Part shown: piece by piece, positions 24,996 to 30,309 of the stretch
How positions within the stretch are numbered: position 1 is the first letter of the stretch
Layout: each line of letters opens with the position of its first letter
DNA from: Fimbriiglobus sp.
GTDB taxonomy: Bacteria; Planctomycetota; Planctomycetia; Gemmatales; Gemmataceae
Direction: 5' to 3'
Assembly: GCA_025351325.1 (NCBI GenBank)
Contig: JANXWE010000242.1
Span: 1-41,044 of the forward strand
Length of the DNA stretch: 41,044 bases
Made by a program: the position numbers and the translations under genes
The notes under the pieces: generated by a model
Databases searched by the model: none
The model's input: the letters and a program-made list of their open reading frames with translations, nothing else
Told to the model about the DNA's origin: nothing

Positions 24996-25931
24996 TTACC
25001 AATCCGCCATCACCTCCCCGCGGTCGCGGGTGACCGCCGACCAGAACAGCGACGGATCGATGGTCGGGCTGATAGTCCGCACGCTGCCGTCGAAGAGCAG
25101 AGTCGGCAGTCCGGCAGCATACGGCGTCTGCGGCACCGCCGACCACGCCGCATCCGGCTTGGGGCGCACTTGAAACGTTTGTCCCGGCACGGATGGGCGA
25201 GTCACAACCTGCCCGTTGATTACGCTCGTGATAGGAATCACTTCGCCCCTGTAGCCAGCATCGGCGAAGGTCGCTCGACGAGAAGCTTCGTAGTAGTAAT
25301 TCGATGCGCTTCCGGGAAGAACTTCCGCGTAACTCGTCCCAGTTTCCCATTCCGCCCCGGAATGGGGAGTACTAGTGTCACTGAGCATGTACGATATAAT
25401 ATATCTCTCCGTCGCGGCGATGGTCTGGCTGGTTCCGTCCGGGAAACCGTTCGTTAAATTCGGCCGGCCTTCCAACGCCGACATGTTCAACCCATAGCTG
25501 CATGGGCCTTGAATCGCACTCCCATTGCTCAAACCCTGGGAAGTAAAAGTCGGATCGGCGGGGGCGGTGAGGACCTTCAACGCCGGGTAACCATCCTCCG
25601 GCCGAAGTTTTACCTCAGTGTATGGGATCAGTTGGAGCATTGGCGGCACGTCGGCATTCGGGTCATCGCCACTGCCGCTCGCCAAATAAATTGGGTCGAC
25701 AGGCGTCACCTTGCGGGCGTTGTTTACCCCGGGCAGACGGCCTTTGACATCGTTGTGGGTGTGCATCGCCAAGCCGATTTGCTTCAGGTTGTTCGTCGAC
25801 TGCATCCGGCTCGCGGTCAGCCGCACCATCTGAATCGCCGGTAAGATGAGGGCGACTAACAGCAGGATGATCGCGACGACGACGATCAGTTCCAGGAGCG
25901 TGAATCCGCGACGGCGTTTATGGTTCGACAT
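24996..25931 (-). CDS. DUF1559 protein with type IV pilin-like N-terminus
   Basis: A 311-residue planctomycete-type DUF1559 (SBP_bac_10-like) protein. From ATG 25931 (GAGGA 7 bases upstream) it begins [20 protein letters not shown]: a class III prepilin signal with cleavage after Gly9, Phe10 and the assembly Glu14, followed by a hydrophobic helix to about residue 35. The conserved early motif [17 protein letters not shown] (about 45-61) and the C-terminal [16 protein letters not shown] are DUF1559 hallmarks. These proteins occur in dozens to hundreds of copies per genome and are presumed pseudopilins or surface proteins. It sits 40 bases downstream of the repeat-controlled secreted gene and may share its transcript. 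Confidence 0.93.
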
Positions 25932-25971: not shown

Positions 25972-26490
25972 CTACGGCTTTGGGACGGGAATCCACTCGC
26001 TGCCATTTTCTGTGTACGTGTGGATCACTCCGCCATTTTCCGTCTCGAAAACTATTTTCATATCGTAGTTGTATTTGGCAATCACATATCGAGGGTAATT
26101 GACAGTCCCAAGGTAGGTACCGTTCTGCGGTTTTGCTGGTTCACGAGTAATTCCAGCTTGTTGATTGGGTGGAGTTGGAGTTGTTTCTGTAACGAGAGGT
26201 GCGTTCTTTGTTATGACAGAGCCTCCAAGTTTTGGATCCGTTTCACGAAGAGTTACACGGATTCTGAGTTTCGCCGGTAGATCTTTGAAACCACCGAAGA
26301 AGACAAAGTCATACGTGGTGATGTTCGTGTTGGGATTGGTATTTGCATTTGGGGTTAGCAGTGCAGCAGTGAATGAGGGTGGCGTGGGCGCCTGAGCTTT
26401 CAGACTCGAACTGCTAGCGAGAAACGCGAAGAGAACTAGCGCGAGCACCGAGCACCGAGCACCGAGCACCGAGCACCGAGCACCGAGCAC
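25972..26490 (-). CDS. Small secreted protein of unknown function, 5' end in a heptamer repeat
   Basis: The open frame encodes a signal-peptide-like stretch ([20 protein letters not shown]) and then about 135 mature residues rich in Thr, Asn and Pro with a likely beta fold ([40 protein letters not shown]). The family is not recognised. The beginning is ambiguous: in this frame the first codons are GTG (26490, 26469, 26448) inside a tandem repeat, and a stop lies just upstream at 26509-26511. The best ribosome site (GGAG then ATG at 26518) feeds another frame, which ends after 34 codons at 26414. The gene may thus be switched off by the present repeat number, or start weakly at GTG 26448. Confidence 0.6.
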
Positions 26491-26500
26491 CGAGCACCGA
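26442..26500 (-). repeat. Heptanucleotide tandem repeat, eight perfect copies
   Basis: On the plus strand CGAGCAC is repeated eight times without a change from 26442 to 26497, followed by CGA (26498-26500). On the coding strand this is GTGCTCG x8. Since 7 is not a multiple of three, all three frames read the same stop-free peptide cycle VLGARCS, and each gain or loss of one copy shifts the downstream frame. Confidence 0.97.
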
Positions 26501-26509
26501 CAGCTGAGT

Positions 26510-26530
26510 CATTTGCATCTGTCCGACTCC
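26510..26530 (-). promoter_or_regulatory. Ribosome-binding site and ATG pair upstream of the heptamer repeat
   Basis: On the minus strand GGAG (26530-26527) is followed after 8 bases by ATG (26518), CAA and a second in-frame ATG (26512). Seven codons later the repeat begins. This start is in frame with the secreted protein only if the repeat number is 1 modulo 3 (4, 7, 10); with the eight copies present it is not. Confidence 0.6.
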
Positions 26531-26667
26531 ACTGGAGAGAAATGTTGCCACAGGGGAGTGTGGCCAATCAACGCAGGCATTGTGTGCCAAGAACGTTAAT
26601 TAATAACAAACTACTGCCTTGGGATCATGGCTGTCAAGCGAATTCCCGATTGTTCCAGAAGATTTAT

Positions 26668-29600
26668 TTACCTCTGAAAGCGACTTACCACAGTCGCCCC
26701 TTCTTTCAGTTCGAAGCGGTACCCGTCGGCGAACGCTTCCGCGAATTCTTCTTGATGGCTCACCAGCAAAATGCACTTGAGTTGCCCACGCAGATTCTGC
26801 AATTCTTGGATCATGACCTGGCGGCCGTTGCGGTCGAGGCAGCCGAAGCCCTCGTCGATGATCACGCTCTCGATGGGGCGGTGCTGCCGGCTGGCGTATT
26901 GGCCGATGGCCAGTGCCAAGCTGACGGCGACGCGGAATTTTTGGCTCCCACTGAGGAACAGAACGTTGATCGGTTCGCCGCCGGTGGTGCGGTTGAAGCA
27001 GTCGAGGTCGAGCGCTTGATCGGCACTGCCGTCGTCGCCGCTGGCCAACTTCAAATAGAGCTGCCCGCTGCTGAGACGGTCGAGCACGGCGTTGCCGTAC
27101 TCGACGATCTGACGTTCCGCTTGGCGGACGAGGTGCCGTTGCAGCCGATCGCGCCCCAGCAGTTCGGAGAGGATCTTGAAGCGGTTGAACTGGCCGTCGG
27201 CCTCCTTGAATTGGAGACCGAGTTTCGCGCGCGATTCGCGGTAGCCGTCGAGCTTCAGTTTTTCTTTGTGGGCAATTTGCAGCGCAGCGTCGCAGCGGTC
27301 GTATTCCTGTTGTGCGACTTTCACCAAGGATTGCAGCTCGGCCACCGGTCGGCGGACATCCTCGGGGAATGATTGCGATTCGGCATCGAGCCGTTCGACT
27401 TCGAGCCGCAAGGTGTTCAAGCCGTGCCGGGATTGTTCGAGCTGTTGGAAGCGTGTTTCGGTCTTCGCTTCGATCAAATCATCGAGTTCGGTCTTCCATT
27501 GCGAGTAGTGTTCCAGACCCGCTTTCTGTGCGGGTTCCAACCAGGCTGGTGGTAAGTTCCGCAACCACTTCTCGATGGTGTCGGCGCAGTGTTGCAGATT
27601 CAATTTTTCGGAGTTGAGCTTCCCCGTGAGTTCCGTGAGGTACTGGGCTTCGTTGGCCGCGTCGGTAGCGAGCTTGTCAATCGCCCGGTCGAGCGTTTCG
27701 AGCGCGGTTTTTCCGCCTTTGATCTGGTTCGTCAGCACCGTATCTCGACTTTGGGCGGTGGCGAATTCTTGACGCAAAGCCACCACGTCGGCGTCGGGCA
27801 GGTTCATTTTCAGGCGGTCACGCGATTGTTGAGCGGCATCCAACCGCGTCCGCAGGTCGTTGATTTTCTTCAGTGTTTCCTCGGCCGTGGTGGCCTGTCG
27901 CCGCGCGGCATCGAGGCCGGCAATTTCTCGCCGCATCGCGGTGAGTTCATCGCGCTCGGGAAATGTCGATTTCGCCCAGTCCTTCGGTGCCGAAGCTGCG
28001 ATCTGTCGTTGGTAAGGGTTTGGCATCTCGGCGTAACGGAGATCGAGCGACTTCGTCAGCCGTTCGATGTCGCGCACGGCTTGCGTCGCGGCCGCATCAC
28101 GGATCTTGTATTCTTCCCGCAACGTCACCAACCGTTCGGTCTGCGCGGCATCGGCGACTATCGCCGTTTCTTCGTGCTGCTGGGCTAACTTCACCTCGGC
28201 AGAAAACTTCTTCACCACGGCGGCGGTCAAGGCCACGGCTTCGGTGCGGCGTTTCAGTTCCTCTCCGAAATGCGCCGGGGTGAGGGGTTGTCCGCAAGCC
28301 GTGCAACTCGACGCACCTTGGATCGCCTGGAAGTCCGTCAGAGCCGCCTTGGCCTGTTGCTGCTGGGCTTTGGCCACGGCGAGCGCACTCTCCGCCTGGC
28401 CGCGCGTCAATCGTGCTGCTTCTAAATCCAACTTGGTTTTGGCGGCGTCTTCTTTCGCTTTCGCGCCGGTGGCTTTCAACTCTGTCACCGATTTTCGCGC
28501 GTCCGATTCGGCGATTTTGAACTGGGCAAGATCGTGCCGTTCTGTGGAGAGCCGCTCGAGAATTGGCAGAACCCGGTCAAGCGTCCCCAGCCGTTCCACT
28601 TCGGCCCGGGCCGCCTTCAGATCCGCGTCTGGGTTCTTCGGCAGTTGCTGCAGTTCCTCGGTGAATCTTTTGAGGTTGCTCTCTTCGACTTCGACCAGTC
28701 GGATGGTCTGCAATTGCCCCGTCAAAGTCCGAATCTGCGCGTTCAGTTTGCCGTAGTCCGCTTCGTGTTCGTCAAGTTTCTTCTTGTCAAGCGTGCGTTG
28801 CCGGCGCTGGCCATCCAGGCTCACTTCGGCGTTCGATTTGCGGAGCAACGTCTCCTCTTTCTCCGTGGCAAACTTGGCGGTCTTCTTGGTGGCCTCGACC
28901 GACTTCGCCCGCGTGGTCACCACGATCTCCACGGCGGGCAAGACTTGCCGGAGTTCGGTGAAGCGCTGATAGGTCGTTTGAATCGTCGCGGCTTCGCCGA
29001 GCAGTGCTTCGCTCTGTTTGAGCTTCCCTTTGGCGACGCTGCTGCGCTGTTCCGCTTCGGCCCAACGCCGCGACGCTTCCACGCGCTCTTGCCCCGCGCG
29101 GGCCGATTCCTGCACTTCGACTCGGGCCCGTTCGCATTCGTCGATTCGAATCAGTGCACCGGCGAAGTCCACGTCCGCCACTTCTTGCACGCCGGCCATC
29201 TGGGTCGAGTACGCATCGCGATCGGATTTCAGCTTCAGCTTCTGGGAGTTGGCCCGTTCGTACAACCGTTGGTACCGATCCAGATCGACGATGCCCGCGA
29301 GCACTTCGGCGCGGCCGCTCGGCTTGGAGTCGAGCAACTTTTCCGCTTTGCCTTGGAGCAAAAGGACACTCGACGTGAAGATGTCGTAGCTCAGTCCGAT
29401 CTTGGCGGCGATCCACTTGTCGAAGTCGACTTTTTTGTTCGTGTCGGGCACCGCTTCCCAGTCGTGGGTGGTCTCCACGAACACTTGCTGCGTCCCCACG
29501 GTGTTCCCTTTTTTGTTCCGCTTGAGCGTGCGTTTGATGCGGAACAATTGATTGTCGAGGTGGAAGTCGAACTCCACCGCGAGCGCGTTCGATTCTTTGT

Positions 29601-29793
29601 TGATCAGTTCGTCGGCATTTTGGCTTCCGCCCCGGTGGTGACCGAAGAGCGAATACGTGACCGCGTCGAAGATGGACGACTTCCCCGAGCCGTTCGTGCC
29701 GGTCAGCATCCAAAGCGGCGAGCCGGCGAAGGTGATCTCCTGCGCGTCCTTGTACGACAGAAACCCGGACAGTTGAACGCGGTGCGGAATCAT
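26668..29793 (-). CDS. sbcC: SbcC/Rad50-like SMC-type ATPase
   Basis: A 1041-residue DNA repair ATPase of the SbcC/Rad50 group, normally working with the SbcD/Mre11 nuclease to open and trim DNA ends and hairpins. Start 29793 (MIPHRVQLSGFLSYK) is the family opening; the 42 codons open upstream overlap the divergent gene and are rejected. Walker A GTNGSGKS is at 32-39, a Q-loop lies near LLLQGKAEKLL, long coiled coils flank a zinc hook CTAC (Cys497, Cys500) at the centre, the signature is SGSQKFRVAVSLALAIG, and Walker B is VIIDEGFGCLD. No sbcD is adjacent on either side. It is divergent from the SRPBCC gene with 66 bases between starts. Confidence 0.92.
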   Translation of the reverse strand: MIPHRVQLSGFLSYKDAQEITFAGSPLWMLTGTNGSGKSSIFDAVTYSLFGHHRGGSQNADELINKESNALAVEFDFHLDNQLFRIKRTLKRNKKGNTVGTQQVFVETTHDWEAVPDTNKKVDFDKWIAAKIGLSYDIFTSSVLLLQGKAEKLLDSKPSGRAEVLAGIVDLDRYQRLYERANSQKLKLKSDRDAYSTQMAGVQEVADVDFAGALIRIDECERARVEVQESARAGQERVEASRRWAEAEQRSSVAKGKLKQSEALLGEAATIQTTYQRFTELRQVLPAVEIVVTTRAKSVEATKKTAKFATEKEETLLRKSNAEVSLDGQRRQRTLDKKKLDEHEADYGKLNAQIRTLTGQLQTIRLVEVEESNLKRFTEELQQLPKNPDADLKAARAEVERLGTLDRVLPILERLSTERHDLAQFKIAESDARKSVTELKATGAKAKEDAAKTKLDLEAARLTRGQAESALAVAKAQQQQAKAALTDFQAIQGASSCTACGQPLTPAHFGEELKRRTEAVALTAAVVKKFSAEVKLAQQHEETAIVADAAQTERLVTLREEYKIRDAAATQAVRDIERLTKSLDLRYAEMPNPYQRQIAASAPKDWAKSTFPERDELTAMRREIAGLDAARRQATTAEETLKKINDLRTRLDAAQQSRDRLKMNLPDADVVALRQEFATAQSRDTVLTNQIKGGKTALETLDRAIDKLATDAANEAQYLTELTGKLNSEKLNLQHCADTIEKWLRNLPPAWLEPAQKAGLEHYSQWKTELDDLIEAKTETRFQQLEQSRHGLNTLRLEVERLDAESQSFPEDVRRPVAELQSLVKVAQQEYDRCDAALQIAHKEKLKLDGYRESRAKLGLQFKEADGQFNRFKILSELLGRDRLQRHLVRQAERQIVEYGNAVLDRLSSGQLYLKLASGDDGSADQALDLDCFNRTTGGEPINVLFLSGSQKFRVAVSLALAIGQYASRQHRPIESVIIDEGFGCLDRNGRQVMIQELQNLRGQLKCILLVSHQEEFAEAFADGYRFELKEGATVVSRFQR

Positions 29794-29814
29794 GGGGATG
29801 ATCCAATCGGATGA

Positions 29815-29820
29815 TATAAT
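29815..29820 (+). promoter_or_regulatory. Candidate -10 box for the SRPBCC gene
   Basis: A perfect TATAAT lies 40 bases upstream of the ATG at 29860 in the 66-base divergent gap. No convincing -35 is seen at 16-18 bases before it, so support is weak. Confidence 0.3.
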
Positions 29821-29859
29821 TGACAACGACCGAATCAGTTTTCTGCGGAGGGTGGCACC

Positions 29860-30309
29860 ATGATCGCATTCGACGGCACCGAAACCTTCCCACTGCCCCT
29901 CGCGGTGATGTTCGCCCATCTCGGCGATGCCGGTTTTCTGGCGGGCTGTCTGCCCGATACCGAAGTCGTGCGGGCGACGCCGGACGAAGCCGAGTGGAAA
30001 TCGAAGCCCAAGCTCGCGTTCTTGGCCGGGGTCATCGATACGACGGCCAGGGTGACCGAGCGCCGGGGAACCGAGTTTTTGAAGTATACCCTCACTACAA
30101 AAGCGCTCGGCAGTGGCAGCACCGTCGACGCGAGCTTAACGCTCGAATCGACGGCGGACGGCGGAACGCTGGTACGCTGGTCGGGGGCGATCACGAGTTT
30201 CAGTGGACTGTTGAAGTTGGCCCCGAAGGGGCTGATTCAAGCGACTGCGACCAAGGTGATCGCCGACGTCTGGGTCGCGGTGCGGGCCAAGCTCGTCCCC
30301 GCGGGCTGA
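29860..30309 (+). CDS. SRPBCC-fold protein (CoxG-like)
   Basis: A 149-residue single-domain protein of the SRPBCC/START-like superfamily, closest by eye to carbon monoxide dehydrogenase subunit G (CoxG): FDGTETFPLPLAVMFAHLGDAGFLAGCLPDTE at the start and VRWSGAITSFSGLLKLAPKGLIQATATKVIADVW at the end, the usual last helix. GGAGG sits 8 bases before the ATG. No CO dehydrogenase genes are nearby, so a lipid- or ligand-binding role of unknown kind is more likely. Its last 73 bases overlap the 3' end of the opposite-strand zinc-ribbon gene. Confidence 0.8.
   Translation: MIAFDGTETFPLPLAVMFAHLGDAGFLAGCLPDTEVVRATPDEAEWKSKPKLAFLAGVIDTTARVTERRGTEFLKYTLTTKALGSGSTVDASLTLESTADGGTLVRWSGAITSFSGLLKLAPKGLIQATATKVIADVWVAVRAKLVPAG

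Follow-up and report, generated by a model that had tools for sequence, protein, structure and literature searches.

On the minus strand of the window (the whole stretch of 41,044 nt analysed here), a gene encoding a small protein, predicted to be Sec-exported, is followed by a pilin-like gene of the DUF1559 family. Between the start codon and the body of the first reading frame lies a tandem repeat whose unit length is not a multiple of three (Table 1). This repeat, composed of perfect GTGCTCG copies, is the strongest tandem array of the window (TRF: 100% matches, score 118) and reaches 8.4 units if the preceding TCG is counted. The first-pass annotation had described these eight copies, the GGAG located 8 nt before an ATG, the seven codons preceding the array and the closure of the ATG frame after 34 codons. 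All these elements were found again, those upstream of the array spanning positions 26530-26498.

The 18-nt spacer between the putative -35 and -10 boxes, gccatgatcccaaggcag, is free of homopolymers, and a tract of the type known from the porA promoter is thus absent from this locus. Further downstream, the stem of the leader hairpin is retained in the paralogous cassette C126, in which the CTCCCC loop is altered. A CTCC-N3-GGAG element (26527-26537), located in the conserved leader region, could cover the Shine-Dalgarno (SD) sequence. When leader and array were folded together as RNA, their stability did not exceed that of shuffled sequences. The upstream neighbour on the same strand (26668-29919) encodes an SbcC/Rad50-like ATPase.

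The DUF1559 gene, which is likely carried by the same transcript as the small secreted gene, matches PF07596 (48.5 bits vs. a cut-off of 23.3) and the N-methylation motif PF07963 (31.4 vs. 21.2). The small secreted protein has no match over the cut-off in Pfam or NCBIfam, and no relatives of it were found in viral contigs. Single-sequence structure prediction gave a weak beta-sandwich (pLDDT 62). A search of the PDB with this model returned no match at E ≤0.001, the best being an Ig-like domain (0.0024), and we tentatively consider the predicted fold as an Ig-like beta sandwich. Across paralogues, BLASTP sorts the small proteins into five related groups and leaves 28 singletons, several of the assigned frames being uncertain. 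Such a fold, together with wide variation between paralogues, would perhaps suit a displayed protein.

Table 1. Features of the window locus (positions in the window)
Feature	Position	Strand	Remark
Putative -35 box, TTGACA (cgcTTGACAgcca...)	26632..26637	-	Kept in paralogue C126, and in relatives upstream of the same gene pair
Putative -10 box, TAGTTT	26608..26613	-	After an 18-nt spacer; TAATTT in paralogue C126
Hairpin GCCACA-CTCCCC-TGTGGC, 5' leader	26547..26564	-	Stem kept in paralogue C126
Shine-Dalgarno sequence, GGAG	26527..26530	-	8 nt before ATG
ATG and first seven codons (MQMTQLS)	26498..26518 (ATG 26518-26516)	-	Resembles MLTQLWTVL/MLRQLVMFL starts of repeat-free homologues
Putative switch tract (GTGCTCG)8, signal-peptide coding region	26442..26497	-	Predicted ON at 1, 4, 7, 10 copies
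TAG closing the ATG frame at eight copies (OFF)	26414..26416	-	Frame of 34 codons
Signal-peptide hydrophobic core and cleavage region	26391..26441	-	Secreted-protein frame
Remainder of small secreted protein ORF	25972..26441	-	Mature part about 140 aa
DUF1559 (PF07596) pilin-like gene	24996..25931	-	N-terminal methylation motif; 40 nt downstream of secreted gene

Copy number and reading frame at the window locus

We varied the copy number of the array in silico. With seven or ten copies, the SD-ATG is in frame with the secreted protein (179 and 186 aa, respectively); with six or nine, a stop codon directly follows the array; with the eight copies of the assembly, the product is limited to 34 aa (OFF). 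The prediction that removing one copy or adding two would join the ATG to the secreted protein, the third class stopping right behind the repeat, was therefore borne out.

The repeat-free G011 homologues start at the equivalent codon, directly behind an SD-like stretch, with MLRQLVMFL and, from a GTG start, MLTQLWTVL, which match MTQLSVL at the window locus. Moreover, a single-unit version of the window gene would encode an ordinary signal peptide. Taken together, these observations make the array look like an expansion within the signal-peptide sequence, 3' of an ancestral start.

Related cassettes in the source genome and in sister species

The same cassette is found elsewhere in the genome (C126), with a promoter, a leader and an SD-ATG in common with the window locus (C130). 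The array of C126 also comprises eight units (3 GTGTTCG and 5 GTGCTCG) and is in the OFF phase, as at C130. DNA identity between the two cassettes is about 90% over promoter, leader, array and signal sequence (88-91% for the leader), falls to about 43-50% in the mature secreted protein (42-48% amino acid identity), and is back up to 86% in the first 200 nt of the DUF1559 gene. The three adjacent identical GTGTTCG variants point to a turnover of array units, by duplication or conversion, since the split of the two copies. A tRNA-Glu gene (L010 1749-1821) precedes the C126 cassette by about 130 nt. At the end of its contig, about 50 nt are identical to the end of the window DUF1559 gene, and more copies may therefore exist.

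Other repeats are found at further copies of this gene pair in the source genome: CTTCTGT (C211) and GTTCTGC (C39) occupy the equivalent place, as does TCCCTCCG at C62, which is in the ON phase. In addition, C148 carries an array of the octamer TCCTGTCT in the 5'UTR, directly before the SD, and C133 a C12 tract in the promoter spacer. A repeat is present at 7 of the 8 pair loci (small secreted gene plus DUF1559 gene) of the source genome.

To estimate a background rate, we surveyed 0.97 Mb of random contigs, about a fifth of the 5.1-Mb source genome. Repeats of comparable grade with units that are not multiples of three occur there at only 0.011 per kb, and no period-7 array of at least three copies appeared in two 1.05-Mb order-4 Markov simulations. 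The window-type repeat is thus far above the genome background, and it is tied to one gene class. Among the other heptamers that the survey yielded, two precede additional DUF1559 genes by about 530-540 nt. Two further arrays look intergenic and unrelated to the switch: (TCCGCAC)4, next to a carB-like gene close to the end of a contig (L251 23-51), and (AGTGGTC)3, which precedes a nucleotidyltransferase-like gene (L229 5649-5671).

Exact GTGCTCG arrays were found nowhere else in the family, and conservation of the unit is therefore the wrong test. Three-unit arrays of the window's heptamer type are absent from the 94 other family genomes, and 389 of 392 phylum genomes contain none of four units. 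In a cross-phylum scan, GTGYTCG arrays were detected in scattered genomes of many phyla, mostly in intergenic or antisense position; given this distribution, a fixed role for the GTGYTCG unit itself was dropped.

Two species from another genus of the family carry orthologous cassettes, G052:C10 and G053:C11, with a CGCCA array of 19 or more copies (OFF) in the former vs. 4.8 copies (ON) in the latter. For the mature protein, dN is 0.008 and dS 0.65 over 124 codons. The secreted protein is therefore under strong purifying selection between species, across the phase change. In a second pair, G052:C45 and G053:C1, a heptamer array has 5.7 vs. 3.0 units, and the G053 copy shows further frame changes.

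Survey of pair loci across the family

Pair loci were gathered with a DUF1559 profile (A3) built from three proteins, two of them encoded at repeat-free loci. This search was blind to repeats, the upstream regions being inspected afterwards, and 49 loci of the family had enough upstream sequence for analysis. A repeat with a unit that is not a multiple of three was found 450-700 nt upstream of the DUF1559 gene, i.e. where the small gene begins, at 25 of these 49 loci; the 24 others had no repeat under the criteria used. When the first 1400 nt were divided into 100-nt bins, 25 repeats fell in the 500s and 600s, and no more than one in any of the other twelve bins. Against the 25 repeats observed, Markov shuffles made locus by locus yielded 1.5 on average and never more than 5. 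At the genome rate, 0.14 would be expected (with the loci taken as independent, Poisson p about 1e-47) and none of 30 canonical DUF1559 loci of the same genome has a repeat at that position (Fisher p 5e-7), but the 49 loci share ancestry, so that p-values overstate independence. The only repeat among the canonical loci is 1397 nt away. At the pair loci, the units measure 1 to 8 nt and are unrelated in sequence: what appears conserved is the site of the repeat, not the sequence of its unit.

Two classes were distinguished according to position. The leader class comprises 13 loci. A start codon, with few exceptions preceded by an SD, lies there 0-18 nt ahead of the repeat, which falls within the signal-peptide sequence. 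The units include GTGCTCG, CTTCTGT, GTTCTGC, TCCCTCCG, TCCTG, GTCA, CGCCA, CGCAGCC, TGGTCGC (2.7 units) and one C9. Their phases, 4 ON and 9 OFF, are as predicted by random phase. When the copy number was varied in silico at ten leader loci, including the window locus, one class in three yielded a secreted protein of at least 150 aa at each of them.

The promoter class comprises nine loci, with G/C tracts of 9-15 (lengths that draft assemblies can miscount) within about 10 nt after TTGAC. Nine of the 12 G/C tracts of at least 9 follow TTGAC, which places a homopolymer between the putative -35 and -10 boxes at related loci; the tract-bearing spacers have roughly the right length, given putative -10 assignments. 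The window locus and C126 share the promoter motif (cgcTTGACAgcca) and have no tract.

Tracts of G9 or longer in a spacer behind TTGAC also precede other genes of the family, at L386 (G000:C278:31672), L377, L392, L380, L394 and L382. By eye, these genes encode MauE/DoxX-like membrane proteins, a DUF1573-like protein, a WD40-like secreted protein and large surface-type proteins with LEALEDRTVPA-like N-termini. More small secreted and pilin-like pairs lie behind G-tract promoters at L372, L387 and L390, outside the DUF1559 profile set. In a tandem set at L019 2544-3138 (G011:C51), the central small secreted gene is divided between two frames and may represent a recombination scar or a pseudogene.

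A candidate phase-variable switch and its alternatives

In our judgement, this is very probably a phase-variable (contingency) locus with the heptamer tract as its switch, and it belongs to a family-wide set of two-gene cassettes. The proposal of a translational switch gains independent comparative support from the other repeats at the equivalent position, found ON and OFF in the expected proportion, and from the sister-species orthologues, whose copy number and phase differ around a protein under purifying selection. Slipped-strand events at replication would change the copy number and thereby determine whether the SD-ATG shares its frame with the Sec signal peptide and the small secreted protein; in this way, the ATG would be switched on and off within a clone. 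In the OFF phase, translation would end early, and expression of the downstream DUF1559 gene may also drop through polarity. Loci of the promoter class would switch both genes of the cassette. The small secreted protein, possibly located at the surface, would be the common target of both classes, the same output being reached through 4-8-nt (rarely 1-nt) repeats behind the start codon or through G/C tracts in the promoter spacer. As counterpoints to a switch, neither C130 nor C126 is in the ON phase, eight units make a modest tract, and about half of the pair loci lack a repeat under our criteria.

Translation might instead begin at a GTG inside the array, production of the protein then being independent of copy number, with a repeat that only varies the length of the signal-peptide n-region. 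Every unit contains a GTG, so that one is always in the secreted frame. A TGA (26511-26509) lies in this frame 5' of the array, and the only starts 5' of the hydrophobic core are the GTGs at 26490, 26469 and 26448. The first-pass annotation had named the last of these as a caveat; it is in the secreted frame as claimed, but it is not alone, and the GTG at 26469 gives a plausible signal peptide. However, no SD was found before any of these three GTGs, while the SD-ATG is kept in C126 and matched in repeat-free homologues. Moreover, arrays devoid of ATG, GTG and TTG occupy the same place at seven other loci (C211, C39, C62, G003:C199, G067:C29, G052:C10 and G052:C45). The secreted frame of C211 lacks any start codon in the assembled phase, and C39 and G003:C199 lack an SD-equipped start that would preserve the signal peptide. 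The caveat thus appears peculiar to the GTGCTCG-type unit, i.e. to C130 and C126, where in-array GTGs could allow leaky translation whatever the copy number. As a replacement for the switch, we regard an in-array start as unlikely.

The wide and mostly intergenic or antisense occurrence of GTGYTCG arrays, along with the out-of-frame state of both C130 and C126, could also fit a dispersed heptamer that expanded by chance inside the gene and broke it, leaving a pseudogene. The near absence of such arrays from the family and phylum genomes, the filling of the same site by other unit sequences, the open secreted frame and the strong purifying selection on the G052:C10/G053:C11 pair make this highly improbable. 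There is even less reason to believe in an assembly error or a fixed frameshift in this metagenome-assembled genome: although repeats are error-prone and the genome is a draft of 382 contigs, the 56-nt array fits inside short reads, eight units of distinguishable types are also present in the independent C126 copy, and the pattern recurs in many assemblies. Programmed frameshifting or reinitiation, for which the overlap of the 34-codon upstream frame with the secreted frame leaves room at eight copies, can practically be set aside: it is not needed at ON loci, and C130, C211, C39 and G003:C199 would each need their own shift within different sequences, although neither a slippery site nor a downstream start common to these four loci was found.

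A switch in the leader has a known counterpart in the opa genes of Neisseria, where the copy number of CTCTT repeats in the leader-peptide coding region sets the frame (PMC3960869, PMC3899988). As at opa, whose products are located on the outer surface, a repeat with a unit that is not a multiple of three follows the start codon within the signal-peptide sequence, in a multicopy gene family. The planctomycete loci differ in pairing an unrelated secreted protein with a DUF1559 pilin-like gene and in the diversity of their units, most loci having one of their own (a C tract, or 4, 5, 7 or 8 nt); switching is here a prediction from sequences. The promoter poly-G of Neisseria porA and the TA repeats of Haemophilus hifA/hifB alter the -35/-10 spacing (PMC3899988). 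The G/C-tract class of related loci (C133, G003:C141 and others) resembles these systems, to which the window locus does not belong; unlike them, one planctomycete operon type uses either the promoter or the leader class. Dispersed heptamer repeats are known in cyanobacteria. Heptamer-derived satellites have been described in other bacteria (PMC6749651). The likeness is limited to the heptameric tandem units, since these repeats are spread through the genome, whereas the planctomycete loci conserve the site and not the unit sequence. In a broad survey, mono- to trinucleotide repeats were avoided across phyla, including planctomycetes (PMC4060949).

Our literature search, beyond which subscription papers may exist, found no report linking phase variation with planctomycetes, co-mentions concerning other organisms or broad surveys. 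Most known cases of repeat-driven phase variation come from host-adapted bacteria. The many different repeat switches predicted on one gene pair across the family point to an unreported system shuffling exported proteins. We give a little better than even chances to a broader reading, in which the free-living planctomycetes of this family would run a large phasome: dozens of independently switched cassettes, each displaying one of many different small secreted proteins along with its dedicated DUF1559 partner, would use interchangeable repeats (promoter spacer or leader, 1-8-nt units) and give the surface a combinatorial diversity, perhaps directed against phages or grazers. If the switch is real, environmental bacteria with unusual cell envelopes would also randomly shuffle exported proteins, and these cassettes would provide a first handle on the role of part of the hugely expanded DUF1559 family.
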